64,000 nt of DNA from NCBI RefSeq assembly GCF_040802235.1, contig NC_133166.1, positions 112,296,991 through 112,360,990 of the forward strand, written 5' to 3'. Shown here in pieces: positions 27-64,000 of the stretch; position 1 is the stretch's first letter; every line of letters begins with the position of its first letter. The notes beneath the pieces are model-generated. The model did not search any database. It had not been told where the DNA came from and was given only the letters and a program-made list of their open reading frames with translations. A program made the position numbers and the translations under genes. Source of the DNA: Manis javanica (Eukaryota; Chordata; Mammalia; Pholidota; Manidae).

Positions 27-6191
<6,165 letters not shown>

Positions 6192-9989: not shown

Positions 9990-22441
<12,452 letters not shown>

Positions 22442-38018: not shown

Positions 38019-38579
38019 TCAGATCTTGCACTGGCAGCAAATGGGGACACAGCAGCCAGACTGGGAGCAGCAGGGTTTGCAGCAGCAGGGCTGGGAGCAG
38101 TTGGATTGGGAGCAGATGGGGACACAGCAGCCAGACTGGGAGCAAATGGGGACACAGCAGCCGAACTGGGAGCAAATGGGGACACAGCAACCAGACTGGG
38201 AGCAAATGGGGACACAGCAGCTGGACTGGGAGCAGCAGGGTTTGCAGCAGCCAGGCTGGGAGAAGCCACAGGACCCACAGTTCCCCTTGCAGCCCCCACA
38301 GGACCCACAGCCCCCCTTGCAGCCCCCACAGGACCCACAGCCTCCCTTGCAGCCCCCACAGGACCCACAGCCCCCCTTGCAGCCCCCACAGGACCCACAG
38401 CCCCCCTTGCAACTCCCAGAGGACACACAGCCCCCCTTGCAGCCCCCGCAGGACCCACAGCCCCCTTTGCCACAGCCGGAGCAGGAACAGGCTGGCACAC
38501 AGCAGCACACCGGCTTGCAGCAACAGATGGGCACACAGCAGCCGGAGCCACAGCCTCTGGAGCAGCCACAGCAGCCCAT
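38019..38579 (-). CDS. Keratin-associated protein 5 family member (ultrahigh sulphur)
   Basis: Structural protein of hair cuticle/cortex matrix that cross-links keratin filaments by disulphides. A single-exon frame of 186 aa, with Met at 38,577-38,579 and stop at 38,019-38,021. It starts [21 protein letters not shown] count 61 Cys in 186 residues (33%), the rest mostly Gly, Ser, Lys. Residues 41-110 are six decapeptides of the [10 protein letters not shown] type; the second is a variant ([10 protein letters not shown]) with one Cys lost. Residues 121-160 are four [10 protein letters not shown]-type units. The end is [12 protein letters not shown]. This architecture is diagnostic for KRTAP5, and synteny next to IFITM10 agrees. 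Which KRTAP5 paralogue it is cannot be told because the family evolves by duplication and conversion. A TATA box and poly(A) signal flank it. No frameshift. Confidence 0.95.
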
Positions 38580-42174: not shown

Positions 42175-43635
42175 AAGACACGCTCTGTCGAGGAAGTGAC
42201 CAGCTGACCTCCCGGGTCCGGGGTCTGCAGGAGACCTCGGCCCTTAAAGGAGCCCTGTTCCCAGCTAGTCTGGCACCTCTGGGCCCCATGAAACACCCCT
42301 CCTCTCCTAGGCCGTCCAGATAAAGCAAGGAAACCAACACCAAGTTGATGCATCTCCCCAAGTCTGGCCTTCCGGTCATGCCTTTGACGCATTTAAAAAC
42401 CAAAACCCCACATCCTTAAAAGGTTTCTGCAGGCTCCTCCTCCCGGGGCCCACAGCAGGGGTTCAACTTGCACACCAGCAGAGCTGCTGCGGCCTGAGGT
42501 CCTGCTGCAGGAAAGCACCCACCATCACATCCCCAGGGACAACCACAGGCACACCAGGGCTGGGGGACCAGGGATCGCCAGCGCCAGGGTCTGGGCCTGA
42601 GGTGAGAGCCCCAGGACCCCTGAGGGAGGTGCAGAGGGTCAGGTGGTGGAGGATGGAGGGTGGGAGGGCCAAACCTCAGCCCAGACCATCACTGCAGCCC
42701 TGACTCTGCCCAGGGTGGGGTCTTCTGCTTCCTACCTGCCCTGGGGACACCCCTGCATGGAACGTTTAACAGCTGGTTCCAGTTCAGCCGTGGGGACTTG
42801 TACTCTGCCTCCATCTGAATGCACGGTGTCTGCAGTCCTCTCTGAAGCCCCCCACGGTCAGCTCATCAGCCATGGCAGAAGAGGGGAGAGGCTTCTGGCA
42901 GGGAGGAAAGAAACGGTGGCCCCTCCCCATGTCCTCTTTCTGTCCAGAATATCCAGTACACTGAAGAGTTTCTTTTTCTGCTCCTTCATAACCAAAGTGC
43001 TATCCCCTCGGAGGACCACGGTGGCAACCAGGATGGAGAACAGCACATTTCCATGCTGGGTGAGCATGACTGGCCAGCCTGAGGTGTCATGCAAAGGAAG
43101 ACGCACCATGGGCGCCTTCACCACTCACCAGCCTGTGTGGCCAGCCACAGGAGGGCTGCACGGGGGCGGCTGGGCCTTGCAGCCACAGCGCACAGCTCGG
43201 CCGTGCACATCCGCGCTGACTGCCTCTCCCCACACAGCAGGGCTGCAGGACCAGAGCACAGAGACACAGAGTGGGAGGCGCCCAGTCCTGGACGCCCCAG
43301 CCGCGCCCTTGGCAGAATGCCCCAGGACCGCCAGGACCTGCCACCCACTCAGACTGCTCTGGGGTGGGAGTGGGGACAGGGCTGGCACACAGGGACTGGC
43401 AGGCCTCCACCTGGGCCCTGGCCATCTGCTCGCACGGAGTCCACGCTCCCACACGCTCACCAGCCTGAGGATCACTTTCCTTCTTGAGGCCTTCTTGGGG
43501 TCGGAGCCACGGGCTCTGCGCACCAGCAGCCTTAGCGTTCCCCAGGGCCTCCCTAAAGGCCGTTCCTCCCTTGTTCCAGGACAGCCGGTCCTGGGGGCTG
43601 AAATGAGCAGCCCTGTGGACAAACCTCCTTTCTGT
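42175..43635. other. Region between CpG island and left inverted-repeat arm
   Basis: GC-rich, no supported gene. A frame open on + from 42,643 to 43,923 has no family and runs into the L1 tail at 43,801, so I do not call it. The left arm of the inverted duplication may begin inside this stretch, because its partner is cut by the window end. Confidence 0.5.
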
Positions 43636-43800
43636 GACAATGAAGAGGTTTCAGCAGGGGCTGAAGGGGGTCACTGCATAACTGAGATCCTGCACGAACG
43701 TGGGAGCCTCCTCTCCCCGCCAGCTGCAGGGATTCACAAGGGCGTATGGCCTCTCACCCCCGCTTCCCATTGGAAAAGCCGCTACCTTCTGCCTGCCACT

Positions 43801-44186
43801 TCTTTTTTTTTTTTGAGAGGGCATCTCTCATATTTATTGATCAAATGGTTGTTAACAACAATAAAATTCTGTATAGGGGGAGTCAATGCTCAATGCACAA
43901 TCATTAATCCATCTCAAGCCTAATTCTCGTCAGTCTCCAATCTTCTGAAGCATAACGAACAAGTTCTTACATGGTGAACGAATTCTTACATAGTGAATAA
44001 ATTCTTACATGGTGAACAGTACAAGGGCAGTCATCACAGAAACTTTCGGTTTTGATCATGCATTATGAACTACAAACAATCAGGTCAAATATGAGTATTC
44101 GTTTGATTTTTATACTTGATTTATATGTGGATCCCACATTTCTCCCTTTATTATTATTATTATTTTTATTTTTAATAAAATGCTGA
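43801..44186 (-). mobile_element. L1-type 3' end inserted in the left arm only
   Basis: Begins with a T-rich run (43,803-43,814) on +, i.e. a poly(A) tail in antisense, and is 5'-truncated at about 44,186. The matching place in the right arm (63,770-63,826) has about 56 unrelated bases and no element. It shares ACAAGTTCTTACATGGTGAA and other blocks with the element at 2,215-3,060, which defines the family. Confidence 0.8.
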
Positions 44187-45309
44187 AGAAACACAGGTAT
44201 TTTTAAGTAAGCCAAATTAAATTAATACCAAACAAGTTCAGGTGTGGTGAACACCTGTGACTGTCCTGTCAAAGTTTGTTAACCATGAACATCTAGCGAA
44301 CTCAAAACCTAACAGAACACCAAAACCCAAAGAAAAGGTTAACACCGGGTCTGAAAACTGTTCATCTACTTAGTTACAAAGAAAGAAACGCAGGGGAAGG
44401 AGGACAGGGCACCCGCTCTCCACCAAAGCGGTGGCCGCAGAAGGTGATGTCAGAGCGGAAGCCGGCGTGGACAGGGCGGCTGAGCAGAGCTGCCCAGGGG
44501 AGGTGGGAGCCCCTCTGGAGGCAGCCTGGCCTCCAAATTCTCCCCGAGCTTCGAGTGGCGATCTCTCCGCTGACATCATCCCCGCGGAGGCATCGACAGG
44601 GTGGTCGTAGAGGTGGTGCTGGTCAAGGACCTCCAGCACTGCACTAGGAAAGGCACGGCCTCGCCTGGGACATTATTAGGCCATTAACATCCTGGATGTG
44701 AGGAAGATGAATGTCGTGGGAAATGCACGGAAATACTGGACTATTTACATGACCACACGATTTGCAAGCAGGAGTCAGGGTGTGCGTGGAGTCCGTGGAT
44801 GGCTGACCAAAAAGCGCCAGGCATGGTGCATCTCCCGGTGAGACGACAGCCACTTTCATTCATGTCTCCTGCTTTTCTACAATAAAAAAGTCTAATTCTA
44901 AGTTTCTCAAGACATAGGAATGATTTTTGAGGGGGGGGTGTGTGAGGAATACCCCAGCAGCAATGGCTTAAACAGGATGGAATTAATTCTCGATCACACT
45001 TGTGCAGGCACGTCAGGATGCAGGGTCCCCTGAGGCTGGTGTGCAGAGGCCCCAGCGCAGAGCCAGGGATCCAGGCTCCTGCTGTCTTCCCACCGCGCAG
45101 TCCTAGCAGCAAGTCTGTCCTCGGAGGCAGAAGCCAGTGGATGCCGGGGCACTGCCATCTCAGCAGCATCGTAGAAGCAGGAAGGAGTGCAGGGGGACAG
45201 CCACAGCGTGCTCCGACCAGCCATGTGTGCCCCCCTGAGAGTGAGACGCAGCGCTTCCAGAGGCCCTGGCACTCGCACCCCCAGGGGTGGACCCAAAGAG
45301 TGAGCAGAC

Positions 45310-45765
45310 GCTGAGCACCCACCTTCATGGTGGCGGTGCTCACAACAGCCCAAAGGCCCAACCTCCTCAACAGGTGATGGGTAAACCAAGTCCATCCACT
45401 CGGGGACTGTCCCTCAGCCTTGAAGGAGAGAACCATGGCCCCACTGCAGCGCGGGGGAATTGAGGACGCTGTGCTTGGGGAAATGGGCCGATGCAGAGGG
45501 ACAGACACTATGTGACCCCCTCCCAGGAGGGCCTGGAGCAGCCAGATCCATGGGCACAGGGAGTGGGTGGGGGCGCCCGGGCGGGGGAGGGGCGGGGGAG
45601 GGTGTTTAGGGGCACAGGGCTCCAGTCTGGGGAGATGGAGAGCTCTGGAGGCGGTGGGATGGCTGCAGACGGCGTGAACATGCCTAATCCTGCCGAGGGT
45701 GCCCTGAGATGTGGCAAAGATGGCGAGTTTTATGTTGTATGTATTTTGCCACCATAACAAGCAGG
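45310..45765 (+). mobile_element. GC-shifted L1 3'-end remnant in left arm
   Basis: Sense L1 tail: GGGTAAACCAAGTCCATCC, CTCAGCCTTGAAGGAGAGAA, and the end GTTTTATGTTGTATGTATTT TGCCACCATAAC. It is old and has drifted to high GC, so it predates the duplication; the copy in the other arm is at 62,190-62,640. Confidence 0.55.
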
Positions 45766-46379
45766 GGAAAGAAAAAGAGGAGGGAAAGGGTGGCTACCAG
45801 GCCGTTTGTCCTCAGTGTCCCCAGGGAAGGGGCCAGCAGAGGCCTGGGTCCAGTGGGCCGAGGGGCAGGAAGGCGGGTGGGTACGGCGCTGGCTCTGTCT
45901 CTGGGTGGAATGAGGGGGTCGGGAGCCTGGGCACAGCTGAGAAGCCGCCCCACCTGGATGGTCCTGGGGCGAAGGCATCGACCCCCTAGGGATCCGGGTC
46001 AGGCCAGGCAGGGTGCAGGGAGTGGTGTGCCCTGGCTGGCACCCAGGAGGGGCTGAGTGCCAGGCAGTGGGGGGCCTCCTCTTAAGCAGGAGGTCCCCAG
46101 GGTGTGGCCATAGCCCCCGGACGGAGCCCCAGGGACTGGTGCAGGGCAAGATGGCCTCGGGGGCCTCCGGGAGCCTGCAGGGACTGGGGGTGGGGGAAGG
46201 GACTCGGAGGCCACAGCAGGGCCCAGCCTGGAGCAGCCCCCGCAGCCAAACATCCCAGCGGGTGGAGTGCCTGTAGGTCAGGGGACAGGTGGGAGGGGAG
46301 GGGCCAGGAGCCCCTCAGCTTTGCCACTCCAGGACCCCAGCCGTGAGCCCACCCAGAGGCTCCTGTGCTGTCAGCGCCC

Positions 46380-47330
46380 CCGCTGGGCCCTGGGCTGGCT
46401 TCGCGGGCTGGACCTCGGTCCCCGGGCACCTGGCTCCTCACTGTCCGTCCGGCTCAGCCACAGACCCCGTGCCCCTCTCGGCCTCTGCGTCCACGACACT
46501 CCACGGGGCGCCAGCTCCCGTCCTCTGGGCCGGCAGCGGCTTGGGCTGGGCGGCCCGCTGCCCTCCACCCGAGGCCGTTCGCTCCCCACCCAGGGCCCCC
46601 AGCCCGTCCGCACTGCCAGCCCCGACGCGGGCTGACCACGCGGGGGGCGGGGCCCTGAGCCGGGCTGAGGCCGCGTGCCCCGCGTGATGGCGCGGACGGT
46701 CCCGCGGGGGCCCGGGCAGACCTGCGGAGCGTTACCGGGGAACGAAGGCGAAGGAGGCGCGCGGGCGGCCGCGGTGTCCGTCCTGTAAGCAGTCGGCCTC
46801 TGGACGCAAACCAGGCTCCGGCCGGGACGTCAGGGAAACATCTGCGTCGGGGCCCCGCGCCCCCCTCGGGCCCTGGGACACGTCAGAGGGACCGCGAGCC
46901 GTCTCGTAATTAGGCAAATTGGTCTCACATTCCTCCACTAAATCCCCAGATCCCTGCAATTTTAGGTCTCCTCAGAAATGAAAACATTTGGCGACTGCGT
47001 GACCCAGGAAAGAAGCGGGGGCCGCTCTCGGCTGGAAAGCACCGATTGGGGGCAGCTGTGGGGTGCGGCCGCCTTGGGCCGAGAGGAACCTGCCGGGGAG
47101 GGCTGGGCGCCTGGGGCGCGGGGCTGCTTCCCGGGGCCGCCTGCGAGGGCACGTGGCCCGGGGCCCGGCTCCCACGGCTCGGGGGTCTGGCTGCGGGCGG
47201 CGGGGTGGGCCCCGTGGCTCTGACCCCAGGATCTGGGGCTGGGGCCCATCTGCGGGCAGCACCAAGGACCGTGGCCTGGCAGCAAGGGTCCCGGTGGAGA
47301 GCTGGGTGTCCGGGGCCGCTGTCTGCGCCC
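46380..47330. promoter_or_regulatory. CpG-rich block in the left arm (no gene recognised)
   Basis: About 950 bp of very high CpG density (CACGCGGGGGGCGGGGC, GGCGCGCGGGCGGCCGCGG). It includes a minus-strand frame of 75 codons (46,732-46,959), whose translation is identical to the + frame at 60,993-61,220. It could be a bidirectional or non-coding RNA promoter. The coding potential of the 75-aa frame is unproven: it has no known domain. Confidence 0.5.
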
Positions 47331-47609
47331 GTGGCTCCCACACCTGAATGCTATATACTCTTACTCTATTTTGCTTATTCTCCATCTCTATTGATTTTAT
47401 TTAATTTTATCTTTTTGATAATGTAAAACACTAAATTGTCTCCAGAAATGAAATTTGCCTACGCTGAGCCCCAGTTTCTGAGTTCTGGTCCACCTTCCCT
47501 GTGGTTTCTGCAAGAATGACAAGAAGCAGGTACACCTTATGTCACTTCCTTTGTTACAGAAAAGGAGCAGACGATAGAGGCTCTTTTTAAAAAACACATA
47601 CCGCTTTAA

Positions 47610-49000
47610 AAAACTTATTGATTTGAAATATTTATAGGGTCACAGGAAGTTTCAAAATTAGTGGTTCCTAGGTTGCGTTCAACCACTTGCCCCAGGGGCT
47701 CACCCTACCTACCTACATCGTGATCCTGGGGCCGTCCCCCCCAGAGCCACAGTCCCCTTCGCCCACATGCCTCCTAACAACCACCAACCTATTTCCTAGG
47801 GCATCATCCTGACATTTTGGGGGTGATGTATAAACGGAGTCGTACAGTATGTGACCATTTGAGATTGGGTTTCTCACTCAGCATGATGCCCTGGATACCC
47901 ATCTAACTTTGTGTGTGTATCAGTAGTTTCTCTTTATTGATAAGTGTACCCCATGTCCTGGTGCTGTTTGACTAGCCGTTCGCCTACGGAAGGATACTTT
48001 AGCTGTGTCCAGTTTGGGGCTATTACCCCTGAAGCCCTAGAGCACGGTCATGTCGGCTGAGTGTGTGAACCTATGTTCCATTTCTCCAGGATCAATGCCC
48101 GGGACCCGACTGCGGGGTCACATGGTAAGTGTATGCTTAGTTTTTGAAGAAACTGTCAGACGTGCCATTTGCATCCCCAACAGCTGTTTGTCCCCTCCAG
48201 CCCACGCTCCTGAGCGTTGTCGTCCTGTTTCACCTCAGTGGTTCTAAGAGGTGTGATGTGGTAGCTTGCTGTGGTCCTAGTGTGTGCTGCCCGGTGGCTG
48301 TGGGTGTGCACGTCTTTCCACATGGTCCTGAGAGACCCCACACCCTCTGTGAGGCATCTCCTCGCTCTTCCAACCACTTTGCTCGTCTCCCTGCCTCCCA
48401 GCCTGTAGCTTCTGTTTTCATCCTGTTAACAGCGGTGTTTGCAGGGTAAAAGCTTTTTTTATTTTTTGACAAAACCTAATTCATTGATTTTTTTAAAAAA
48501 CTTTAAGGCTCATGCCTTTGATGTTGTGTCTCAGAACTCTGCCAAGCCCCAGGGCCTGAAGAGTCTTAAGTTTTCTATGCATAGTTTTAAGTTTTATTTT
48601 GTGTATTTAAATCTGTGATCCGATTTGAGTTAATTTTTTATAAGGTGGCATGAAGTTTAGGTCAAGGGTCTTTTCTCTTTTTTTTTTCTGCCTGAGGCTC
48701 CCCAGTTGCTCTGACACCATTTGCTGAAAAGGCTACACTTTCCCCTCGATCATTCTCTCCGTTCACCTGTGCGTCTGTGTCTCCCCAGGGGGACATTCTC
48801 CAACACTGTGGTTTCAGAGAAAGTCCTAAAATGAGTGGTGCATGCCTCCAATTTCACTCTTCTTCTTTTTTTTTTAAAGTCTAACACTTCCAGTATTTTT
48901 TGCCCTTCCATATACATTTTTAGAATCCATTTCTCTATTTCTACAAAATTTTTTTCTGGTGTTGTGATAGGCATTGTGTTAAATGTACACAGATCAACTT
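47610..49000 (-). mobile_element. L1 fragment, antisense
   Basis: Ordered antisense L1 words: GCATCATCCTGACATTTTGG, GGGTTTCTCACTCAGCATGA, ATCAGTAGTTTCTCTTTATT, GTCACATGGTAAGTGTATGC, and TTCTATGCATAGTTTTAAGT, CCATTTGCTGAAAAGGCTAC. The same family block as 32,345-35,380. The next 1.5 kb (49,000-50,480) is AT-rich and probably also L1, without landmarks I trust. Confidence 0.65.
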
Positions 49001-50489
49001 AGGAAGGATGAAAATAAAATGTAAAAGCAATCAGTGTAGCTTACTCCATGACTACATTTACGAGGAGAACGTCACAGGTGACACGCCGACCCCGAGCCCG
49101 GCCGTCCCCCGAAGCCCCCTGGCCAGTCTCCTCTCTGCGTGCTCAGCCCATTTTGCTGTTCAGTTGCCGGATCTTGTAGTTGCTGATTTATGTGATCAGT
49201 GTGGATATGAGGGTTATTGATTTGTTATGGTTACATTTATCAGAAGTAACTACTCTTACTCTGAAATACTTCTTTTTTATTGTACTTTCAATAGAGAGGT
49301 GTTTCATTTTGAAAGAGTCAAGTCTCTGCAACATTCCCACGATTATTTCTGCATTAATGCCATGTTAAGAGCTTTCCTCCCTCACGATTACAGTAACATT
49401 CCTGTGCGTGTCCTGTCAGGAACTTCCTATTTTATTTTTTCTGTTTAGATTTCCATTCCTCTTTGATTTTCTTTCGTGTCTCAGTCCAGATCTAATCACT
49501 GTCCTCCAGATGAACTGGCAGTAGCTGCCGTGCCATGTCGGCGGTAATCGTGCCTAGTTCCTGTTGAGCCAGGATGTCGTGTCCGCCTGACCCTGAGCTG
49601 TGACGGGGGACTTGACGGAGTAGCCGGGCATCAGTCTATCCGATCTCCAATCAACAAGCTGCTGTTTTCATTACTGGCCTCGGTGACTTGTTGCGCTATC
49701 TGTCCCGGAAATCTCTATTCATTTTCTTCCTTTATATTTTGCTTTCAAAACTTTAATAGCTACTCTGTATACACAGTCTTTAACGAGGATCTGAGAGGAA
49801 GCTTGGTAAGATAAAAATAGTCCTTTGTTTAATGGAATGGAATTAAATGGAATTGGATTCGCCCTTGGAGAACTGAATTACACTGCATCTTCCCAGTCGA
49901 GGAACATGCTATTTCTCTGCATTTATTTAAATATTTTCTTAGGAAGAATAAGCTCTCTAAGACTTTTTTTTTTGAACTATGTTTTCTTCATTTATTTTTT
50001 TCTCCAAGGCATTTATGGTATTCTATGATTTTTAACTTATGAATGGGATATGTTGTCACATGATATTTTCTGTACACTGTGTGACTCGTGGTGTTTTGTA
50101 CTGAGCTTTGACTTGTTCTGGTGTTTTTCTCTTCCTTTTCAATATTTTGAGTTGTATTTACTTGTTGCTTTGCCGCAGTGCTGTCTTCCAAACACTGTGA
50201 CATGAAACAGGTGGCGCTCTTCCCTTCATGTCGCATCTGCATGGGGAGTTTAATGTCACTTCTGATGGACATCTTTCAGAGGGCAAAGGTCATGCTAGCT
50301 TTTCAAGATTTTTCCTTTTTTCTGAATAGTGAATGTTGAGCTTTAAGCTTTCGGACCTCTGACTTTGTTGAACTTAGAAGGCTTCGTGACTTATACTTGA
50401 AATATTCATAGAGTTTATCATCCATGGAGCTTCAAGGTTACATGAATCGATTAACTGCTGCTCCTCTCTTCCTGGAATCGCCCACACTT

Positions 50490-50545
50490 GTTTAGTGCCT
50501 GGCAGGTAACAGGCACTCAGTGAGTATTTGTTGCATAAGAGTGGA
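50490..50545 (+). mobile_element. L2/MIR 3' end fragment
   Basis: GTGCCTGGCAGGTAACAGGC ACTCAGTGAGTATTTGTTG matches the shared end of L2/MIR elements. Confidence 0.55.
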
Positions 50546-50984
50546 TGGAGGAGAAGAAACATGGAGAAAACCCCTTCCGTGGTGCGGGCATGAGGGGCCT
50601 GCTGTGGGGCAGGGACGTGCTGGCACCCAGGTCGGCCCCGTGCTGAGCGCAGGGCGGTGGCAGCCTCGGCTGGAAGGGCTCCAAGCCCATGACGTCAGAG
50701 AGAAGGCCAGCTTATCTCTGTTCTCTGGTGCCTTATCTTTGGTCACCCAAACCCAGGTCACCTCCTGACTAGACCGACAAATCCCACACAAATGACAGGA
50801 AAAGAATCAGGCCTGCAGGGGACCTAATGCATTCCAGCCTCTGTTACTCGCAGGCACCATGTCTGGCACTCCTGAAATTAAGAGATGACAAAAAGGAAGG
50901 TGGAAGGAGCCACTGTCCCTCCATAAAGCCTGTACTTAGTGGAGTCCTACTCAGAGACGGTCAGATGAGGGATAGAAATGCCGC

Positions 50985-52240
50985 CTTGCACTCTCACACA
51001 CACACCTACACACACACACACTTACACAAGCGCACACACACACACCTACACAAGCACAAACACACATACACCTACACAGGCACATACACACACACACCTA
51101 CACAGGCACACACAGCTACATACACACCTACACAAGCACACACAGCTACATACACACCTACACAGGCACACACACACATACCTACACAAGTGCACACACA
51201 GCTACATACACACCTACACAAGCACACACAGCTACATACACACCTACACAAGCACAAACACACACACCTACACAAGCACACACACACATACACCTACACA
51301 AGCACAAACACCTACATACACATCTGCACAAGTACACACGCACACCTACTCAAGCACAAACACACATACACCTACACAGGCACACACACACATACCTACA
51401 CAAGTGCACACACACACCTACACAAGCACACACAGCTACACACACACCTGCACAAGCACACACACACCTACTCAGGCACAAACACACATACCTACACAGG
51501 CACACACACACATACCTACACAAGTGCACACACACACCTACACAAGCACACACAGCTACACACACACCTGCACAAGCACACACACACCTACTCAGGCACA
51601 AACACACATACCTACACAGGCACACACACACATACCTACACAAGCACACACACACATACACCTACACAAGCACAAACACACACACCTACACAGGCACAAA
51701 CACACACACCTGCACAAGCACACACATACACCTACACAAGCACACACGCACGCCTACTCAAGCATACACACCTACCTACACACACCTACACAAGCACACA
51801 CACATACCTACACAATCACACACAGCTACATACACACCTGCACAAGCACAAACACACATACACCTACACAAGTGCACACACACACCTACACAAGCACACA
51901 CACCTACATACACACCTGCACAAGCACAAACACACATAAACAAACACACATACACCTACACAAGCACACACGCACGCCTGCACAAGCACAAACACACATA
52001 CACCTACACAAGCGCACACACACACCTACACAAGCACACACACCTACATACACACCTGCACAAGCACACACACACATACACAAACACACATACACCTACA
52101 CAAGCACACACACCTACATGCACACCTGCACAAGCACAAACACACATAAACAAACACACATACACCTACACAAGCACACACGCACACCTACTCAAGCATA
52201 CACACCTACCTACACACACCTACTCAAGCACACACACAAG
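50985..52240. repeat. CA-rich minisatellite with higher-order structure
   Basis: About 1.25 kb built from short CACACACCTACACAAG-type variants (CACCTACACAAGCACA, CAGCTACATACACACC, CTGCACAAGCAC). A 120-bp higher-order unit repeats: the start CCTACACAGGCACACACACA occurs at 51,371, 51,491 and 51,611, and the first two units look identical. The + strand is nearly G-free. All long frames in it (Thr/His-rich on +, Cys/Val-rich on -) are repeat artefacts. Confidence 0.93.
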
Positions 52241-52244
52241 CACA

Positions 52245-52635
52245 GTTATAGACGAGGAATTCTGTGACAGGCTCATGAGCAGACTGGACAGACCTAAGGA
52301 AGGAATCAGCGAGCTGGAGGCAGATGAATAGAAATCACCCAGAAGGAAGCATCTATGAGGAAAACAGGGAGAGAGACCTGAACTGAGCATCTGAAAGCTG
52401 TGAGATGCTTCACAATCCTCAGCATATGTGTGACCTGGGCTCTAGGAAGAAGAGAGAGAGAGCACACAAGAAAAACGATTTGAAGAGATAATGGCTGAGA
52501 TTTACCCCAAATCAGGGAGAGACAAAGCATCACAGACTCAAAGATTTCGGAGGGCCGTCAGCAGGACACCCCTCTGGGACTAATGAGCAAGGCCCGCAGA
52601 GCTGACGGATACAGGATCAGGGGGATTTCTGTCAG
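52245..52635. other. Short non-repetitive stretch after the minisatellite
   Basis: About 390 bp with purine-rich AAGAAGAGAGAGAGAGC; no gene seen. It may already be L1-derived. Confidence 0.4.
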
Positions 52636-52639
52636 CCAT

Positions 52640-53630
52640 CAACAATCTGGAAATAAAATTAAGAAAACAGTTCCATTCATTATTGTGTTGACAAGAATAA
52701 AACACGTAAGAATAAATGTGATACAAAAAGTACAAGCCTGTGCGTTCAGACCTCTGAACCACAGCCAGGAAGGTTCCAGGAGAACCTAAGCAAACTGGGG
52801 GACCCTCCAGGTCCGCGGACTCCAGACTCAGCCTTGTTACAGTGGCAATTCTCCCCCAGAATAATTTGCAAATTCAATAAAATCCCCATCAAAATTCCCG
52901 CAGACCTTTGTGCAAAAATCTACAAATAGACCCTAATATTTATATGGAAATACAAAGGGCCCAATATAGACAAAATCATTTTGAAAAAGAACAAAATGAG
53001 GGGACTTTCACTCCCCAATCTCAAAACCTACTATAAAATTACAGTAATCAAGACAGGGTGGTTCTAACACCAGGGCAGACATACAGAAGAGTGAGACAGA
53101 ATTGAGAATTCAGAAATAAACCTTTATATTTATTGTCTACTAATTTTGGACAAAAACTCAAAGGCAATTCAATGGGGAAAGAATAGTCTTTTCAACAATG
53201 GTGCAGAGACAGCCGGATATCCCCATGCAAAAGAATAAATCTGAAGCCCTCCCCGCTGCAGGTCCCAAAGGAATCACAAAGCGGGCCTAAATGTAACAGC
53301 TCAGACTAAACTGTTGGACAGGAACACAGGAGAAAATACATGTGGCCGTGGTGTAGGCACGATTCCTAGAAATGACAGCAAAAATACTAGCTGTTAAAGA
53401 AAACCTTGATTAAACCAGACTTCATTATATGAAAAATATTTTGTGGTCCAAGAGACCCCGTTAAGAAAATGAAAAGACAAGCCACAGACTGGGAGAAAAC
53501 ATTTGCGAATCATATGGCTTAGAGTGGATGGTGTCCTGAATATATTAAAAAATAGTAACTCTTAATATGACAAACAGTCCAATCAGAAATGGGCAATGTA
53601 TTTGAATAGATATTTTATAAAGTCATAATT
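52640..53630 (+). mobile_element. L1 ORF2 3' fragment, sense
   Basis: Clear L1 order: AATTCAATAAAATCCCCATC, ATATGGAAATACAAAGGGCC, GGGACTTTCACTCCCCAATC, ATTACAGTAATCAAGACAGG, CATGCAAAAGAATAAATCTG, AGTAACTCTTAATATGACAA. The frames are broken by stops. Confidence 0.8.
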
Positions 53631-53634
53631 TGTG

Positions 53635-54950
53635 ATTCACTCACTCAGTGCCATGTATTTCCCAGCAAGGACGGTGTCTGTGTGCTCCACGCATTCTAAC
53701 ACGCACTGCTTTTATTAACCCTACTTCTAATCACTTTGTATTTTAACCCCAAGTTTACAGCACAGTGTTATATATACATTATCTTAACTATCCCTTTTGT
53801 GACTTAATTGCTAATATTTTGCTTTGGTGGTGGGAGGAATATGTTCTTTATGTTGACCCTTAGAATATCAGAAAAATTTATGAATATCAGCTCCACCAGG
53901 GGCTTAACACTGAGCTTGCTGCCCCGGCGCCCTTCAGGTCCACAGACATTTGGTATATGTTCTCCTGTCCCTCTGCAGAAAGCTCATTGCTGGATCTCTT
54001 AATCTAATCCCTAACCTCTGTCCTAGTCGGGAAATGTAATCCACTCACTCTCCTGCTAATCCCTACTGTGCGAGGATTCATTTCTGCTACTTGAGATTGT
54101 GTTTTCTATCTCACTCAGTTTCTCCCCTTGCTTCTTATTTTTGTCATTACCACACACCATTGGACCAACGCTTCCCCTGGTTTAAAAATCATACATCCTT
54201 GTTTTATTATGGTGACGACGCCCGAGTTTGTTCGCTCTGTTTCTTAAGTGCCACTGCGTCTGTTTCTTCTCCGCGGGCGCCTCGCTTCTGCTGCCAGTGC
54301 CTTCTCTTCCCCGCGCCCTGGCCCATCCCCGGTGCGTGGGAATCTCACTCTGAATTGCCCGGCAGGTGCACTTTCTTATTTTGCTCTCGTCCTTTTAAAA
54401 GATAATAATAAATTTAGAAAAATATTGGATTATTGGATTGCCCTGTTTTCTCACATCTTCTCAAGGTCTGACTGGATGTTTCTCTTTAACTCGCGTTTTC
54501 CTTAAAAAGTGCTTTTAATGTGGGACTTTGTAGGACAATTTTTCTGAGTCCCTGTTTGCCTAAGAATATTCCTGCTGCACCCTCACCTACCCCTCGCTCT
54601 TAGGCATGGTTTTTCCTGCATAGAGACGGTCCTGTTCCTCCCTTGCGTGAAATGTCTTGCCCCTGCCTTCCTGCTCCAGCGCTGTCCGGGGAGGGTTGTG
54701 CCAACCTCGTGATTACTCTGTTCGAAGGGATCCTTCTCCCAGGGCAGCTTTAGAACTGTCTCTTTACCACTCACACTGTAACAGGCTTATCGTGGACAGT
54801 GTGTTTCTTCTTGAACTCCATTCAGGTTTTTTTAAAAAGCCTTCAATTATGGGGAAAATTCACTCATTTGTTTATTCATATATGGGATCTCTCCTCTGGT
54901 GTTTGGGGCCAGCTGAGCCCATCCTGCCAGTGCCCCATCAAAATTCCTCC
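53635..54950. other. AT-rich stretch, probably old repeat debris
   Basis: T-rich non-coding sequence without landmark motifs that I can assign, between two sense L1 fragments. No gene supported. Confidence 0.4.
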
Positions 54951-54954
54951 TCAG

Positions 54955-57385
54955 ACATCATTTGAGAAAACCAGCAAAACTGACTACTCCCTACGTAGTC
55001 TAATCAATGAAGAGAAAGAGAGAGACACACACAGACAATGTCAGGAATGAGAGAAATGACAGCACCACAGACCCTACAGATATTAACGGAATATAATGAG
55101 CAATGTTATGTCAGTAAGTTTGACAACTTAGATGCAATGGACAGATTTCCTGAAAGACACGAACTCCTAGAGCTCTCTGCAGAAGAAACAGATACACTGA
55201 ATAACCCTATATCTGTTAAAGAAATTCAATGTGTAATTAAAAACCTTCCAAAAAAGAAAACTACAGGCCCTAATACTTCACTGGTGAATTCTACCCTAAT
55301 ACCAAAACCAGACAAAGACATCACAAGAAAAGAAAACCACAAACCAATATTCCTCATAAATAAGGTGCAAAAATCTTAGCAGATTGGAGCCAGTAAATAT
55401 TGTCAAGGACGGGGCGAAGTCTGAGCCCTCCTGTGTCGTTGGCAGGGATGTGAAGCGAGGCGACCACACTGGGAAACAGCCTGGCGGTTACCCGGAATGG
55501 AGAATGGGCTCGTCACGTGATCTGGCAAGTCCACGAGAGAAATGAAAACGTATGTCCACACAAAAACTTGTCCACAGTGTTCATAGCAGTATTATTCCTA
55601 ACAGACCTAACATGGTAACAACCCAAATGTCCATCAACTGATAAATGAGGTAACAAATGTGGTCCAGCCGCGCACGGAACATCACAGAGCCACGACCTGA
55701 CAGGCGCAGCCTGGATGGACCCCGAACGTGTTACGCTCAGTGGAAGATGCCAGTCAGGACAGACCACATATGTACTTATACTGTGTCATCTTATGGTGTA
55801 TCTGATAAAGAATCCATTACTGAGCGTCCGGAGCAGGCAAGTCCAGAGACAGAGAGCAGGTTGGGGCGGCCCACTGTGGAGCAGCTGGGTGGAGGAACGG
55901 GGAGGAACCGCTAGCGGGATGGTTTTTTGGGGTGAAGAGAATGTCCTAAAGTTACATAGTTGCACAGATCTGTGAATATACCAAAAACCACTAAATTGCA
56001 TACTTTCAGTGAATTGTGATATGTGAAATATATCTCAATCAAGCTATTTAAGATCAATTGTAGTTCTATAGCCTAGCAGTTACCAATCGAAAGATTGGAA
56101 AAATATTTGAAATTATATATGAATATGAAATCTGTAGGAATAAATTGGACAAAAGGTGTGTAAGGCCTGCACACTAAGAAGTCCAAAACATCCCTGAGAG
56201 AAAATAAAGGCAAATAAAATTAATTGAGATGAATATCTTGTAAACGGGGCAAAATCACAGAAACTAACTTAAAATGTAGGTCCAAGAGGACAGCATGAAA
56301 GTTCAGAGCCTGTAGAAGAAAATACAGGAGAAAATGTTTGCAAACTTGGCAAAGACTTCTTAGTTCCAACCCCAAAAGCATGACTCATCAAAGAACAAAT
56401 CGATAAATTAGGCATTTATCAAAATTAAAACTACAGCTTCAACTCTTCAAAAAAGAAGGAAACTAGGGAAAAGACAATCACAGACCAGTAGAAAATAGTT
56501 GCAAACCGGTCATCTGAAAAGGGTCTCATATCCAGAATATATAAATAAATATCCCTCTAGTCTCAACCATAAGAAAACAAACAGCCCCATTTAACCCCCA
56601 TTAATGGGCAAAGATCCAGCAACCAGTTGCTTCACTGAAATATGCAGAAGGCACCTAAAAAGATGCCCAAGATGAGTAGTCAGTGACTGGAAATCACCGC
56701 CACCGTGAGACCTCATTCCATGCGTGCTAGAACGCTACAGCAGCAGCACTAGCCGCCGGCGGCCGGGAGGCCTGGGGGAAGCTGGAACTCTACGCTGCGG
56801 GCGAGCGTTTGAAATGATGCAACCGCTTTGCAGAATGGCTTGGTGGCTTCCAAACTCGTTAACGTACACCTTCCGCATGACCAGACACTGCACTCCTAGG
56901 TATTTGTCTAAGCAAAGGGAGGGCGTACAGACGTAGGGACGCACATGCAGACGTCCACAGCGGCTTCCTTTATAACACAGCCCAAAGGGCCACCAACAGG
57001 TGACTGTGGGACGTCCACCCGGGGATCCCTCTCGGCAAGGAGGGTGAAATACACAGAAACACTGATGAGCCCTTAACGGATGTGCTGAGCAAAAAGGCCA
57101 GGCCAGGAGTACAAACAGGATTCCACATGTCTTGGAGATGCAAAGCCATACACAGTGACAGGGACACTGGGAGCTGTGTGGGGACGGGTGGGTTTATGGT
57201 GAAGGGAGGGAGGGATCACCACGAGATTGAGGGGTTTTGGGGGTGATGGATGTGTGCATTTCCTGGTCATGGCGATGGCCCTATGGGTGAATCCACGTCG
57301 CGTCTGCTGAATTATACACTTTAAAAGTGTGCAGTTTATTGTACTCGATTATACCCCAATAAAGCATTTAAAAATATATACATGT
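54955..57385 (+). mobile_element. L1 fragments, sense
   Basis: ORF2-region remnants at 54,960-55,380 (AGTCTAATCAATGAAGAG, CTTAGATGCAATGGACAGAT, TTAAAAACCTTCCAAAAAAG), then 3'-end remnants at 55,390-56,050 and 56,060-57,385 (ATAGCAGTATTATTCCTAAC, CCAAATGTCCATCAACTGAT, GAGACCTCATTCCATGCG, and the final ATTATACCCCAATAAAGCAT). At least two insertions are joined; none is intact. Confidence 0.7.
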
Positions 57386-57399
57386 CTTACTGCATTTTT

Positions 57400-57800
57400 T
57401 TAATTAGACTGAGTGCCCAGTTCAGAGGCATTAAGTCCAGTCGCACTGTGTGCAGCCCTCCACTGCCCCCTCCCAGAACTCTTCCGTCTTGTAAATTTTA
57501 ATAACAAAACAGACTCACCCAGCTCCACACCCTCATGCTCTCTTCTCTCGCCATTGCTGCAGGCCACGGGGTGGGCTGTTCCGTCAGCCTTCAAAGCTAT
57601 AGTCCCTTCCTTTCCTAGGCTCTGCTCAGGGCCCGTTTCCCCGAGAGTAGAAGCATCTGTTATCTCAGCCTCTCACATTTGATCTTTGATGTTCATGAAG
57701 TCTCCCCTGCTGTGTCTCTAAGCCTTTCAAGCCCAATGTCTTCTTGAAAAATCCTGTTTTGAATACCCCAAGATGAGCATTCACTCTTCTGCAATGATTA
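57400..57800 (-). mobile_element. L1 3'-UTR remnant, antisense
   Basis: GAGTGCCCAGTTCAGAGGCA TTAAGTCCAG, then CCCAGAACTCTTCCGTCTTG follow the antisense L1 tail order. Faint beyond 57,520. Confidence 0.45.
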
Positions 57801-57814
57801 TGTTTTGTGTCACC

Positions 57815-58155
57815 CTGCACGGTGTTTTGGGCTGAATTTAACATTTTAATCAGTGGCCCTTAAATAAAGCAGATTGCCCTCCCCAGGGTGGGTGGGCCTC
57901 GTCCAATCAGTTGAAGGCCTGCACAGAACAAAAGACTGACCTCTGCAAGCAAGAGGACTTCTCTGGCAGCTGGCCTCCGACGTCATCTGTGCCATCAGCT
58001 CTCCCGCATCTCCCATCTGCAACCCACCCTGCAGAGCTTCGACTCAGCAGCCTCCATAATTGAATTAGTCAGTTCCTTATAATTAAGTCTCTTTAAACAC
58101 ATGTATGTATACTGACTAGCTCTGACTCTCTGGAGACCCCCAACTAATGTAACTC
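57815..58155 (+). mobile_element. Ancient interspersed repeat (family unnamed)
   Basis: Matches a repeat seen often in mammals: GCCCTCCCCAGGGTGGGTGG GCCTCGTCCAATCAGTTGAA GGCCTG, then CTTCTCTGGCAGC, CAGCCTCCATAATTG, CTTATAATTAAGTCTCTTTA and the end TCTCTGGAGACCCCCAACTA ATGTAAC. Probably LTR- or MER-type; I do not name it. Confidence 0.55.
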
Positions 58156-58159
58156 CCAA

Positions 58160-60606
58160 GGAAGGCAGGACTTGAGGGTCCACAAGCCCAGGAGAAAGGG
58201 AGCCACGGAGACTTTCCCTTAAGGGATTCTGACACCTAAACAGAGCATGTATGCTGAGAAACAGGCAGAAAACAGCTGCTCAGAGGCTAGAATTCCAGGC
58301 AGGGTCTTCAGTGGTTCACAGTTTCGGGGGAGGCCTGTGGTGAAGGCCTGCCAGTATGAGGCCCTGGCTGTCAGTTGACACCAGGGAAAGTCTGCCCCCG
58401 GGCAAGGGTAAACGCGAGATCAGACTGAGTCACAGGCCGGCTGTGCTTCTGCCGCCAGAAGGAAATGATTTTGGCTCTAAAGGGACGTTGCATCACCCAG
58501 TTTCGTACTGATGTTCATACAGAGTCTGATGCAGTCAGAGCTCCTCGGGGAGCCAGGCCCTGGCTCTCACCTCAGCATGTGTGACCTTGGCCTAGCTACT
58601 TATTTCTCTGAGCTCCCGTCTCCTCAAACAGGAGGGAAGGGCATGCTGGCATGGGCCTCATAGGCTGTCCTGAAGATGCCCGACCATGGGGGCAGGTGAA
58701 TGATGGCTGTTTATCCTCATCTCCCAGACTAACAGATGAAGGTTGATGTGAGCATCTCCCAAGCAGGATGTGTCAAGGGTCTGCTGAGGGTGGGCCCAGT
58801 ACAAAGCAGCAGACACCCCTGTCGAGTGCTTGAGCATCCATCACAAAGCCCCAGGGACCAGAGGCAGCTGGGCCCAAATCCCCTGCCAGTTAACAATCCC
58901 TGCTTGGAGCAATGGGCTGCTGCCTTGTCAGTGAAAGGAGTCAGGCTATCTGTCTTCTTAAAAATTACTATTCTGCCACCAAACTATGGAAATTTCTGTT
59001 TTAGACTAGAGAGCCCTGGGAAGTCATCCTCCTAGGGGCAACATAGAATCTCTGCTGTGTTCTGCAGGGCCACGACCCCATGCCTGGTCAGGCCAACTCC
59101 CTGTGCATTGCAAAGCCCAGCTCAAAGCCCCTCTAACTCTGCAGCCTCCCCTCACATTCTCCTGCTGCCCTAGAAGACGTAAGCTAAATGCTCCCAACAG
59201 TAAAGAGTGTGACGGCATCTCTGGGATGTTTGGCTGCTGACGGCTTTAAGCTTCCCTCCCCTCCACCCGTGCCCACGTCTGGACACACAGGTAAGAGTAA
59301 GGGGTGTGGTGCCCCTCCTTTGGTGCTAGTGGGAAGTTCAAACCTGGGACCTACTGCCATGCAGGGCAACCCCATCCTTTACCAAAAGCCCTTACCTGGA
59401 GCCGTGCTGAAAGCCTCATTATGTAAGTGACAGGCCTCTTCAAACTTCTTGGTATATGTGCCTCATCACCAGTCTTGATACCAGAACCAAATTTTGGGTG
59501 GGGTTCCTTCTCTTCCTTCACGGTGACCACAGCACCCCCACTCCTGAGCCAGCTGCACTTTCTTACAAAACCCCCACCACTGGCCGCACTGCAGGCTCGT
59601 TTGCATGTACAGACCTCTGCGTGCATTTCCGCGTGGGCTTGGTGAGTGCACAAAACCTGCAATTACGTTCTCAAAAGGCAGCAGGCACAGGACACATGCC
59701 CACTGGGTTATACCATGTTCCCTTGGAAGATGGGACGCGGTGCGCAGAGAGGCCGAGGAACGTGCTCGGGTGCCCCTCTAGGGGCCGGAGCCCAGGGGCA
59801 GGCTCCCAGCCTTGTACCACAGGACCTTACCTTTGTGTCTTAATGGATTTTCAGGACACCCTTGAAGCAGAGACCACATGTCAGTCACCTTGGTGTCCCC
59901 ACCTGAAGCCCATGGCAGGTTCATGTTCTAGGAACACATTTGGCCGTTGGCTAGAATTTCTGGAAACCCCAGATCTTGAGACAGGCAGCAGTGTTATAGA
60001 GAAAGAGGTCCAAGATGGACGACAATTCTACTCTGGGCCTGAGAAACCTTCTGCGTAAGGACCTAGGCCAGGGTGAGGCAAGCTGTCTCCAGGGGGTCAA
60101 GTAACAAGCATTTCAGACTTTGCCCCACGACCACTGTGGCGGCCTCTCAGCCCCGCCACCACTGCGAGAACGAGGCCAGACCATCCCTCAGTGGACGGGG
60201 GGCTCTGCTCCCCACAGCATGACTTAGGGATGCTGGAATTGGAACTCCATGTGATTTCATGTGCCAAAAAAATCTTTTGATTTTTAGGCAATTACTTTGA
60301 AATATGAAAATGGCTCTCAGCCTGTGGACTTTGCTGAAGCAGGGGATGAGCGGATGTAGCCTCAACCCCAGCCCTGGGTCACCAGACAGAGCGACACGTC
60401 CCTCCAGGTGGGCCACCAGGACGAGGGTGAGCCACTGGCTGAGAGGACCCAGGGGCGTGCAGAGCGAGGCACCTGCTGTGAGCACCCAGCCCCTGCAGCT
60501 GTCACAGCCCGGGGACTGAGGCCCGACAGGACAGGACAGATGCAGAGGAGGGTGATGCGCAAGGAAGCTTCTGCCCGTACACAGAGGCCCCGACCCCTGA
60601 GACGGG
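58160..60606. other. Non-coding stretch before the right arm
   Basis: Mixed sequence. It holds one MIR (58,545-58,700); otherwise I see no gene, RNA gene or repeat I can name. Confidence 0.5.
58545..58700 (+). mobile_element. MIR SINE, sense
   Basis: CCTGGCTCTCACCTCAGCAT GTGTGACCTTGGCC, TACTTATTTCTCTGAGCTCC and GGGCCTCATAGGCTGTCCTG follow the MIR consensus order. Confidence 0.6.
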
Positions 60607-60619
60607 CAGGCGTGGGAGC

Positions 60620-61570
60620 CAGGGGAGCAGCCAGCGGCCCCGGACACCCAGCTCTCCACCAGGACCCTTGCTGCCAGGCCACGGTCCTTGGTGCTGCCCG
60701 CAGATGGGCCCCAGACCCAGATCCTGGGGTCAGAGCCATGGGGCCCACCCCGCCGCCCGCAGCCAGACCCCCGAGCCGTGGGAGCCGGGCCCCGGCCACG
60801 TGCCCTCGCAGGCGGCCCCGGGAAGCAGCCCCGCGCCCCAGGCGCCCGGCCCTCCCCGGCAGGTTCCTCTCGGCCCAAGGCGGCCGCACCCCACAGCTGC
60901 CCCCAATCGGTGCTTTCCAGCCGAGAGCGGCCCCCGCTTCTTTCCTGGGTCACGCAGTCGCCAAATGTTTTCATTTCTGAGGAGACCTAAAATTGCAGGG
61001 ATCTGGGGATTTAGTGGAGGAATGTGAGACCAATTTGCCTAATTACGAGACGGCTCGCGGTCCCTCTGACGTGTCCCAGGGCCCGAGGGGGGCGCGGGGC
61101 CCCGATGCAGATGTTTCCCTGACGTCCCGGCCAGAGCCTGGTTTGCGTCCAGAGGCCGACTGCTTACAGGACGGACACCGCGGCCGCCCGCGCGCCTCCT
61201 TCGCCTTCGTTCCCCGGTAACGCTCCGCAGGTCTGCCCGGGCCCCCGCGGGACCGTCCGCGCCATCACGCGGGGCACGCGGCCTCAGCCCGGCTCAGGGC
61301 CCGGCCCCCCGCGTGGTCAGCCGGCGTCGGGGCTGGCAGTGCGGACGGGCTGGGGCCCTGGGTGGGGAGCGAACGGCCTCGGGTGGAGGGCAGCGGGCCG
61401 CCCAGCCCAAGCCGTTGCCGGCCCAGAGGACAGGAGCTGGCGCCCCGTGGAGTGTCGTGGACGCAGAGGCCGAGAGGGGCACGGGGTCTGTGGCTGAGCC
61501 GGACGGACAGTGAGGAGCCAGGTGCCCGGGGACCGAGGTCCAGCCGACCAAGCGAGCCCAGGGCCCAGCG
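60620..61570. promoter_or_regulatory. CpG-rich block in the right arm (no gene recognised)
   Basis: Counterpart of 46,380-47,330. The 75-codon + frame at 60,993-61,220 has the same translation as its partner, with one silent difference noticed by eye. CpG sites are retained in both copies. Confidence 0.5.
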
Positions 61571-62189
61571 GGGGCGCTGACAGCACAGGAGCCTCTGGGT
61601 GGGCTCATGGCTGGGGTCCTGGAGTGGCAAAGCTGAGGGGCTCCTGGCCCCTCCCCTCCCACCTGTCCCCTGACCTACAGGCACTCCACCCGCTGGGATG
61701 TTTGGCTGCGGGGGCTGCTCCAGGCTGGGCCCTGCTGTGGCCTCCGAGTCCCTTCCCCCACCCCCACTACCTGCAGGCTCCCCCCCGAGGCCCCCAAGGC
61801 CATCTTGCCCAGCACCAGTCCCTGGGGCTCCGTCTGGGGGCTGTACGGCCACACCCTGGGGACCTCCTGCTTAAGAGGAGGCCCCCCACTGCCTGGCACT
61901 CAGCCCCTCTTGGGTGCCAGCCAGGGCACACCACTCCCTGCACCCCGCCTGACCTGACCCAGATCCCTAGGGGGTCGATGCCTTTGCCCCAGGACCATCC
62001 AGGTGGGGCGGCTTCTCGGCTGCACCCAGGCTCCCGACCCCCTCATTCCACCCAGAGACAGAGCCAGTGCCGTACCCACCCTCCTCCCTGCCCCTTGGCC
62101 CACTGGACCCAGGCCTCTGCTGGCCCCTTCCCTGGGGATACTGAGGACAAACGACCTGGTGGCCACCCTTTCCCTCCTCTTTTCCTTTC

Positions 62190-62640
62190 CCCTGCTTGTC
62201 ATGGTGGCAAAATACATACAACATAAAACTCGCCATCTTTGCCACATCTCAGGGCACCCTCAGCAGGATTAGGCACGTTCACGCTGTCTGCAGCCATCCC
62301 ACTGCCTCCAGAGCTCCCCATCTCCCCAGACTGGAGCCCTGTGCCCCTAAACACCCTCCCCCGCCCCTCCCTCGCCCGGGCGCCCCCACCCACTCCCTGT
62401 GCCCATGGATCTGGCTGCTCCAGGCCCTCCTGGGAGGGGGTCACATAGCGTCTGTCCCTCTGCATCGGCCCATTTCCCTAGGCACAGCGTCCTCAGTCCC
62501 CCGCGCTGCAGTGTGGCCATGGTTCTCTCCTTCAAGGCTGAGGGACAGTCCCCGAGTGGATGGACTTGGTTTACCCGTCACCTGTTGAGGAGGTCGGGCC
62601 TTTGGGCTGTTGTGAGCACCGCCACCATGAAGGTGGGTGC
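62190..62640 (-). mobile_element. GC-shifted L1 3'-end remnant in right arm
   Basis: Antisense counterpart of 45,310-45,765: CATGGTGGCAAAATACATAC AACATAAAACTCGCC, then AGGATTAGGCACGTTCACGC and ACTGGAGCCCTGTGCCCC, an old L1 tail in reverse. Confidence 0.55.
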
Positions 62641-64000
62641 TCAGCGTCTGCTTACTCTTTGGGTCCACCCCTGGGGGTGCGAGTGCCAGGGCCTCTGGAA
62701 GCGCTGTGTCTCACTCTCAGGGAGGCACACACGGCTGGTCAGAGCACGCTGTGGTCGTCCCCCTGCGCTCCTTCCTGCTTGTACGATGCTGCTGAGATGG
62801 CAGTGCCCCGGCATCCACTGGCTTCTGCCTCTGAGGACAGACTTGCTGCTAGGACTGCGCGGTGGGAAGACAGCAGGAGCCTGGATCCCTGGCTCTGCGC
62901 TGGGGCCTCTGCACACCAGCCTCAGGGGACCCTGCATCCCGACGTGCCTGCACAAGTGTGATCGAGAATTAATTCCATCCTGTTTAAGTCATTGCTGCTG
63001 GGGTATTCCTCACACACTCCCCCCTCAAAAATCATTCTTACGTCTTGAGAAACTTAGAATTAGACTTTTTTATTATAGAAAAGCAGGAGACATTAATGAA
63101 AGTGGCTGTCATCTCACCGGGAGACGTGCCATGCCTGGCACTTTTTGGGCAGCCATCCACGGACTCCACGCACACCCTGACTCCTGCTTGCAAATCGTGT
63201 GGTCATGTAAATAGTCCAGTATTTCCGTGCATTTCCCACGACATTCATCTTCCTCACATCCAGGATGTTAATGGCCTAATAATGTCCCAGGCGAGGCCGT
63301 GCCTTTCCTAGTGCAGTGCTGGAGGTCCTCGACCAGCGCCACTTCTACGACCACCCTGTCGGTGCCTCCGCGGGGACGATGGCAGCGGAGAGATCGCCAC
63401 TCGAAGCTCGGGGAGAATTTGGAGGCCAGGCTGCCTCCAGAGGGGCTCCCACCTCCCCTGGGCGGCTCTGCTCAGCCGCCCTGTCCACGCCGGCTCCCGC
63501 TCTGACAGCACCTTCTGCGGCCACCGCTTTGGTGGAGAGCGGGTGCCCTGTCCTCCTTCCCCTGCGTTTCTTTCTTTGTAACTAAGTGGATGAACAGTTT
63601 TCAGACCCGGTGTTAACCTTTTCTTTGGGTTTTGGTGTTCTGTTAGGTTTTGAGTTCGCTAGATGTTCATGGTTAACAAACTTTGACAGGACAGTCACAG
63701 GTGTTCACCACACCTGAACTTGTTTGGTATTAATTTAATTTGGCTTATTTAAAAATACCTGTGTTTGTGTTTCTCAGTGACAAAGGGACGCAGGCCCAGG
63801 GGAGCAGGGGCAGTGCTTCAGTTATAAGTGGCAGGCAGAAGGTAGCGGCTTTTCCAATGGGAAGCGGGGGTGAGGGGCCATACGCCCTTGTGAATCCCTG
63901 CAGCTGGCGGGGAGAGGAGGCTCCCACGTTCGTGCAGGATCTCAGTTGTGCAGTGACCCCCTTCAGCCCCTGCCATGGCTGGAAGGAAACCTCTTCATCG

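Follow-up and report, generated by a model that had tools for sequence, protein, structure and literature searches.

The KRTAP5 neighborhood of Manis javanica raises the question of whether a large inverted repeat located there is the ancestral FAM99 pair, the human members of which are FAM99A and FAM99B. The repeat is found in a 64,000-nucleotide stretch of chromosome sequence NC_133166.1 (C11:112,296,991–112,360,990), hereafter the window, and consists of two arms, A and B, on either side of a spacer. It is a real inverted segmental duplication. The inverted arms, their limits, their pattern of divergence, a retroposon present in one arm only, and the matching order of the surrounding genes are shown directly. 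The arms may represent an old pair of non-coding units, in inverted orientation, at the place of human FAM99B and FAM99A that has been kept alike by gene conversion, a reading to which we assign a probability of about 0.5. It is favored, mainly on position since humans carry FAM99B and FAM99A where the arms lie, over a lineage-specific inverted duplication, which we consider a serious possibility at somewhat less than even odds.

An inverted segmental duplication

Self-BLAST of the window identifies one large inverted pair. Its inner block aligns 44,189–47,346 with the reverse complement of 63,766–60,607 (3,163 columns, 96.9% identity), and a second block inside the window aligns 43,654–43,801 with the reverse complement of 63,973–63,826 (148 columns, 98.6%); among the matches listed, the further inverted self-matches in the window at E values up to 1e-3 span only 95 and 40 columns. 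Alu-like pairs are absent from this self-comparison, which speaks against a primate source. Because the window ends inside arm B, the arm limits were set after adding the following 100 kb of chromosome sequence, which yields an outer block of 705 columns (43,109–43,801 versus 64,530–63,826, 96.2%). The large inverted duplication described in an earlier note, made from the window sequence, is thus borne out and extends to 43,109–47,346 and 60,607–64,530. The self-alignment beyond the window that the note had proposed carries arm B on to 64,530, and the spacer, put there at 13.3 kb, measures 13,260 bp. The components of the repeat are as follows:

43,109–47,346, plus strand: arm A, 4,238 bp including a 387-bp insert
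43,802–44,188, minus strand: 5'-truncated poly-A retroposon, 387 bp, in arm A only
47,347–60,606, no strand: spacer, 13,260 bp, 46.7% GC, no gene recognized
60,607–64,530, minus strand: arm B, with 60,607–64,000 in the window and 530 bp beyond it

Segmental duplications are defined by arms of at least 1 kb with at least 90% identity, and the repeat, whose arms exceed both values and stand in opposite orientation, is an inverted segmental duplication. No KRTAP5 gene is seen in the arms, and of eight open frames located in the arms or at their margins, none (0/8) has a Pfam match at E values up to 0.1. Neither Rfam at gathering scores nor a tRNA scan gives a match.

When the portion of arm B inside the window is searched against the 2.56-Gb assembly (63 contigs; 24 first-look candidates, all scored), 25 matches result. 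They consist of arm B, the two pieces in which arm A is recovered, and 22 hits to a single dispersed part. Among these 25, only arm B itself and arm A exceed ~341 bp. An 800-bp probe was taken from each of the four flanks, and every probe matches the genome at full length only at its own place. Two of them match nothing else, and the other two also give short, weaker repeat matches at other sites. With two long copies among the 25 genome matches and flanks that match at full length only once, the arms are low-copy and are not a common transposon. The four flank searches gave no answer as to which arm is the copy. The dispersed part, ~62,192–62,566 (~370 bp) together with its mirror in arm A, has its 22 further matches at 68–86% identity, 11 of them on C11:110–114 Mb, 9 on C13:95–101 Mb, and one each on C10 and C2. 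This part would speak for two copies of a common transposon; however, the genome search reveals no further long copy of the arms among its scored candidates, and 3.8 kb at 97% identity cannot be a chance match. A common transposon, or a chance or low-complexity match, is accordingly an explanation that we regard as next to impossible.

Decayed homology past the arm limits, which would point to an older, larger duplication, was sought in comparisons of the flanks with shuffled controls, and none is clear. The inner 6-kb comparison does rise above the shuffles, owing to a weak match between 48,403–48,546 and 56,345–56,483 that lies away from the boundaries.

The aligned arms are 97.24% identical, with 106 mismatches in 3,847 aligned bases (2.8%; Kimura two-parameter distance, K2P, 0.028). 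The mismatches comprise 85 transitions and 21 transversions and affect 54 of 461 CpG sites (11.7%) versus 52 of 3,386 other sites (1.54%). This spectrum resembles germline mutation with CpG decay and fits neither read errors nor a false copy that is exact. An assembly error, in the form of a false inverted copy or unresolved haplotypes, had been named in the earlier note as a serious alternative; judged from the assembled sequence, it is now very improbable. The differences between the arms are CpG-weighted and mutation-like, the 387-bp retroposon is found in one arm only with 59 bp missing beside it, the four flanks are distinct, each probe matching at full length only at its own place, and no N bases occur in the window or the next 100 kb (163 kb examined), all of which lie on one 119-Mb sequence.

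The retroposon starts with a poly-T run exactly where the homology between the arms breaks off; in place of the insert, arm B contains 59 bp (63,767–63,825). A genome search for its family gave 626 first-look candidates, of which the best 40 were scored and are thus chosen for likeness. These copies are 96–98% alike to the arm A insert; the closest among them are ~98% alike, the terminal branch is 0.8%, and no private difference occurs in the 385 columns compared. The similarity of the genome copies argues that the retroposon is young, and it would therefore set only a modest lower bound on the age of the duplication. Its probable youth also suggests that the insertion site has remained unhomogenized between the arms since the retroposon landed. 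A distant relative of the retroposon is present at ~2188–2382 (match 2,243–2,378, 75% alike). The divergence from this relative was considered as proof that the duplication is far older than the divergence of its arms implies, and this argument was rejected on account of the genome copies ~98% alike.

Position of the arms and the human FAM99 genes

The order observed here is CTSD, a CD225 gene (presumably IFITM10), KRTAP5, arm A, arm B, and a KRTAP5 cluster. The gene features within the window are:

3,459–6,145, plus strand: cathepsin D (CTSD) region, with aspartyl-protease stretches (PF00026) in frames 3459–3860 and 5564–6145
10,251–11,936, plus strand: open frame with a CD225 stretch at ~11,622–11,714 (PF04505, E 5.4e-07)
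38,019–38,579, minus strand: KRTAP5-type cysteine/glycine-rich open reading frame (ORF), 186 amino acids from the first ATG, as read from its translation

Three of the ten window frames compared with Pfam match anything, and the KRTAP5-type ORF has no Pfam match. For the frame at 5564–6145, cathepsin D chains are the best among 41 distinct PDB sequences. The CD225 frame is assumed from its position to be IFITM10, and we take the ORF at 38,019–38,579 to be a KRTAP5 gene. It is the positional counterpart of human KRTAP5-6. Beyond arm B follow at least six KRTAP5-like blocks, at 79.1, 82.1, 89.0, 96.3, 102.3 and 114.8 kb (79,135–115,589). The KRTAP5 neighborhood recognized in the earlier note thus contains one KRTAP5-type gene at 38.0–38.6 kb and, in the 100 kb past the window, these blocks, which number at least six. 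The first downstream block is oriented as the 38-kb gene, and the other five are in the opposite orientation.

The human locus offers a close parallel, in which we take LOC402778 to be IFITM10. A human deletion report gives the order KRTAP5-1 to -5, FAM99A, FAM99B, KRTAP5-6, LOC402778, and CTSD (PMC5024517), and a review has those genes plus IFITM10, nested in MOB2 (PMC4394429). FAM99A and FAM99B are adjacent non-coding genes (PMC12282501), belong by name to one sequence-similarity family, and have been studied in humans as an imprinted pair (PMC6116391). Given the matching gene order, the arms stand where humans have FAM99B and FAM99A. Like the human pair at 11p15.5, which lies between KRTAP5-6 and KRTAP5-5 and is characterized by liver-enriched non-coding transcripts, they are two units of one similarity family; they have no significant sequence match with the short human stretches compared. 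Their position suggests that the arms are orthologous to FAM99A and FAM99B. The titles and abstract beginnings searched contain no report of an inverted repeat or inversion at FAM99A/FAM99B, and as most subscription journals fall outside that search, absence from print is unproven. The same literature yielded nothing on KRTAP5 in pangolins.

Divergence and possible gene conversion between the arms

The favored reading supposes two non-coding units in inverted orientation, both of which have a CpG island at the inner end. Intrachromosomal gene conversion would have kept them 97% alike, and a crossover of one arm with the other would invert the 13.3-kb spacer; the antiquity of the pair, the conversion, and the flipping of the spacer are inferred. 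The CpG islands, called in 300-bp windows with GC >0.55 and a CpG observed/expected ratio (o/e) >0.6, are:

44,301–44,850, no strand: weaker CpG island of arm A, o/e 0.62
46,351–47,450, no strand: inner-end CpG island of arm A, o/e 0.77, to which the criterion adds ~100 bp past the arm
60,651–61,600, no strand: inner-end CpG island of arm B, o/e 0.74
63,101–63,650, no strand: weaker CpG island of arm B, o/e 0.65

The arms carry weak sequence signs of conversion. First, mismatches cluster mildly along the arms (variance/mean 1.46, P 0.038; at non-CpG sites 1.51, P 0.040), and the longest identical run at non-CpG sites is 541 (P 0.006). Second, divergence is 1.25% (10/800) in the CpG-island part, ~46,498–47,299, versus 3.2% (96/3,047) elsewhere (P 0.002), an 800/3,047 split that was picked after the profile was seen; earlier counts by eye, ~2% in a CpG-rich stretch and 3% in another, come close to these values. 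Third, 4 mismatches fall within 47 bp of the inner edge (P 0.04); the first 200 bp at the outer edge also contain 4, with no excess. Fourth, the arms have 64% GC, more than either outer 5-kb flank (56.5% and 57.8%) or the spacer (46.7%), and still reach 61% without the inner CpG islands. Higher arm GC is the direction expected of GC-biased gene conversion, a process discussed for primate X palindromes, whose arms are also more GC-rich than their flanking sequence (PMC8981503). Those palindromes differ in having >99% arm identity and in lying on sex chromosomes, compared to 97.2% here.

Several observations weigh against an old pair kept alike by conversion. The human queries consisted of an 82-nt piece of FAM99B (PMC11829061) and FAM99A primers (PMC9609286, PMC7584153, PMC5077982); the text searched of PMC8576446, PMC7341733, PMC9102946, PMC12401184 and PMC12003141 contains no usable FAM99 sequence. 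The FAM99B 82-mer and the joined FAM99A primers score within shuffled controls both in the window (17 versus a control maximum of 22, 15 versus 15, and 11 versus 14) and in the 163 kb (19 versus 22, 15 versus 16, and 13 versus 14), and the spaced FAM99A primer pair scores 35 versus 36 and 39 in the controls. When the 163 kb are divided into 2-kb chunks, two score best for the 82-mer, and one of these overlaps the outer end of arm B, which is within chance. We estimate that ordinary neutral conservation would have made the 82-mer stand out. Since the human stretches fall within their controls, the link between the arms and FAM99 is one of position, and the partial literature text searched does not state the relative orientation of human FAM99A and FAM99B. 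Within the arms, when all sites are counted, the longest identical run (257) falls short of significance (P 0.063), and of 293 other 2.9-kb windows in the region, 67 also reach 61% GC. Constraint on the CpG islands could explain both the uneven divergence and the raised GC. Finally, decayed homology is not evident at the arm boundaries, where the outer 4-kb flank comparison is borderline, at 28.5 versus a control maximum of 29.0.

A lineage-specific inverted duplication would have copied ~3.9 kb in reverse ~17 kb away a few million years (My) ago, with the arms then drifting without much conversion. At a rate of 2.2e-9 per site per year, the divergence corresponds to an age of ~6.4 My from all sites (K2P 0.028) or ~3.5 My from non-CpG sites (1.54%). 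Such an event agrees with the sharp arm boundaries, past which there is no clear older homology, with a spread of mismatches that is near random (P 0.04 to 0.06 in three of four measures), and with human FAM99 stretches that find no match; the apparently young retroposon would fit an insertion after the duplication. However, a recent duplication requires a chance coincidence with the human site of two same-family non-coding genes, and drift alone leaves the lower divergence of the CpG islands unexplained, though constraint would explain it.

The old pair with conversion can be taken a step further. The inverted repeats at FLNA/EMD serve as the example of old repeats that have inverted recurrently, and the placental ancestor dates to ~90 My ago. 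It is conceivable, as a tentative proposal that we hold less probable than either reading above, that a FAM99 inverted repeat was already present in that ancestor and has since been kept alike for ~90 My by autosomal conversion, with repeated flips of the spacer in different lineages, and would thus be an autosomal counterpart of FLNA/EMD.

Comparison with known inversions and other features

Inverted repeats are well described as mediators of inversions. The nearest case among those examined is human HsInv0209, the arms of which lie on 11q. This chromosome 11 locus contains inverted 7-kb duplications, on average 94% identical, that hold KRTAP5-10 and KRTAP5-11; the inversion is polymorphic, with an inverted allele frequency of 0.02 in 90 chromosomes, and a 782-bp stretch at 99.9% identity is its likely breakpoint (PMC3961182). 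Both HsInv0209 and the present repeat are inverted segmental duplications in a KRTAP5 neighborhood. They differ in gene content, as the HsInv0209 arms hold KRTAP5 genes and none is seen in the arms here, and in place, which here corresponds to human 11p15.5. Furthermore, the HsInv0209 inversion polymorphism has been shown in people, whereas the present repeat is described from one assembly. HsInv0389 at FLNA/EMD, listed in the same table (PMC3961182), resembles the repeat in having inverted arms around a spacer. Unlike FLNA/EMD, which is X-linked with genes in the inverted part, the repeat is autosomal by position, its arms are 97% identical, and its spacer has no recognized gene.

If the pair is old, it would provide a small, tractable autosomal case for measuring conversion and recurrent inversion across mammals, and studies of human FAM99A and FAM99B would have to allow for sequence exchange between the two members. 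If it is recent, it represents an ordinary lineage-specific duplication in a type of neighborhood with similar known cases.

The spacer contains a tandem array at 50,995–52,238, made up of 1.2 kb of ~24-bp units (ACACACACACACACCTACACAAGC), and an open frame at 55,011–55,379 that has no Pfam match and that we presume to be L1-like. After the CD225 exon, positions 14,001–22,000 exhibit a strong C-over-G skew on the plus strand, at -0.23 to -0.34 per 2 kb.

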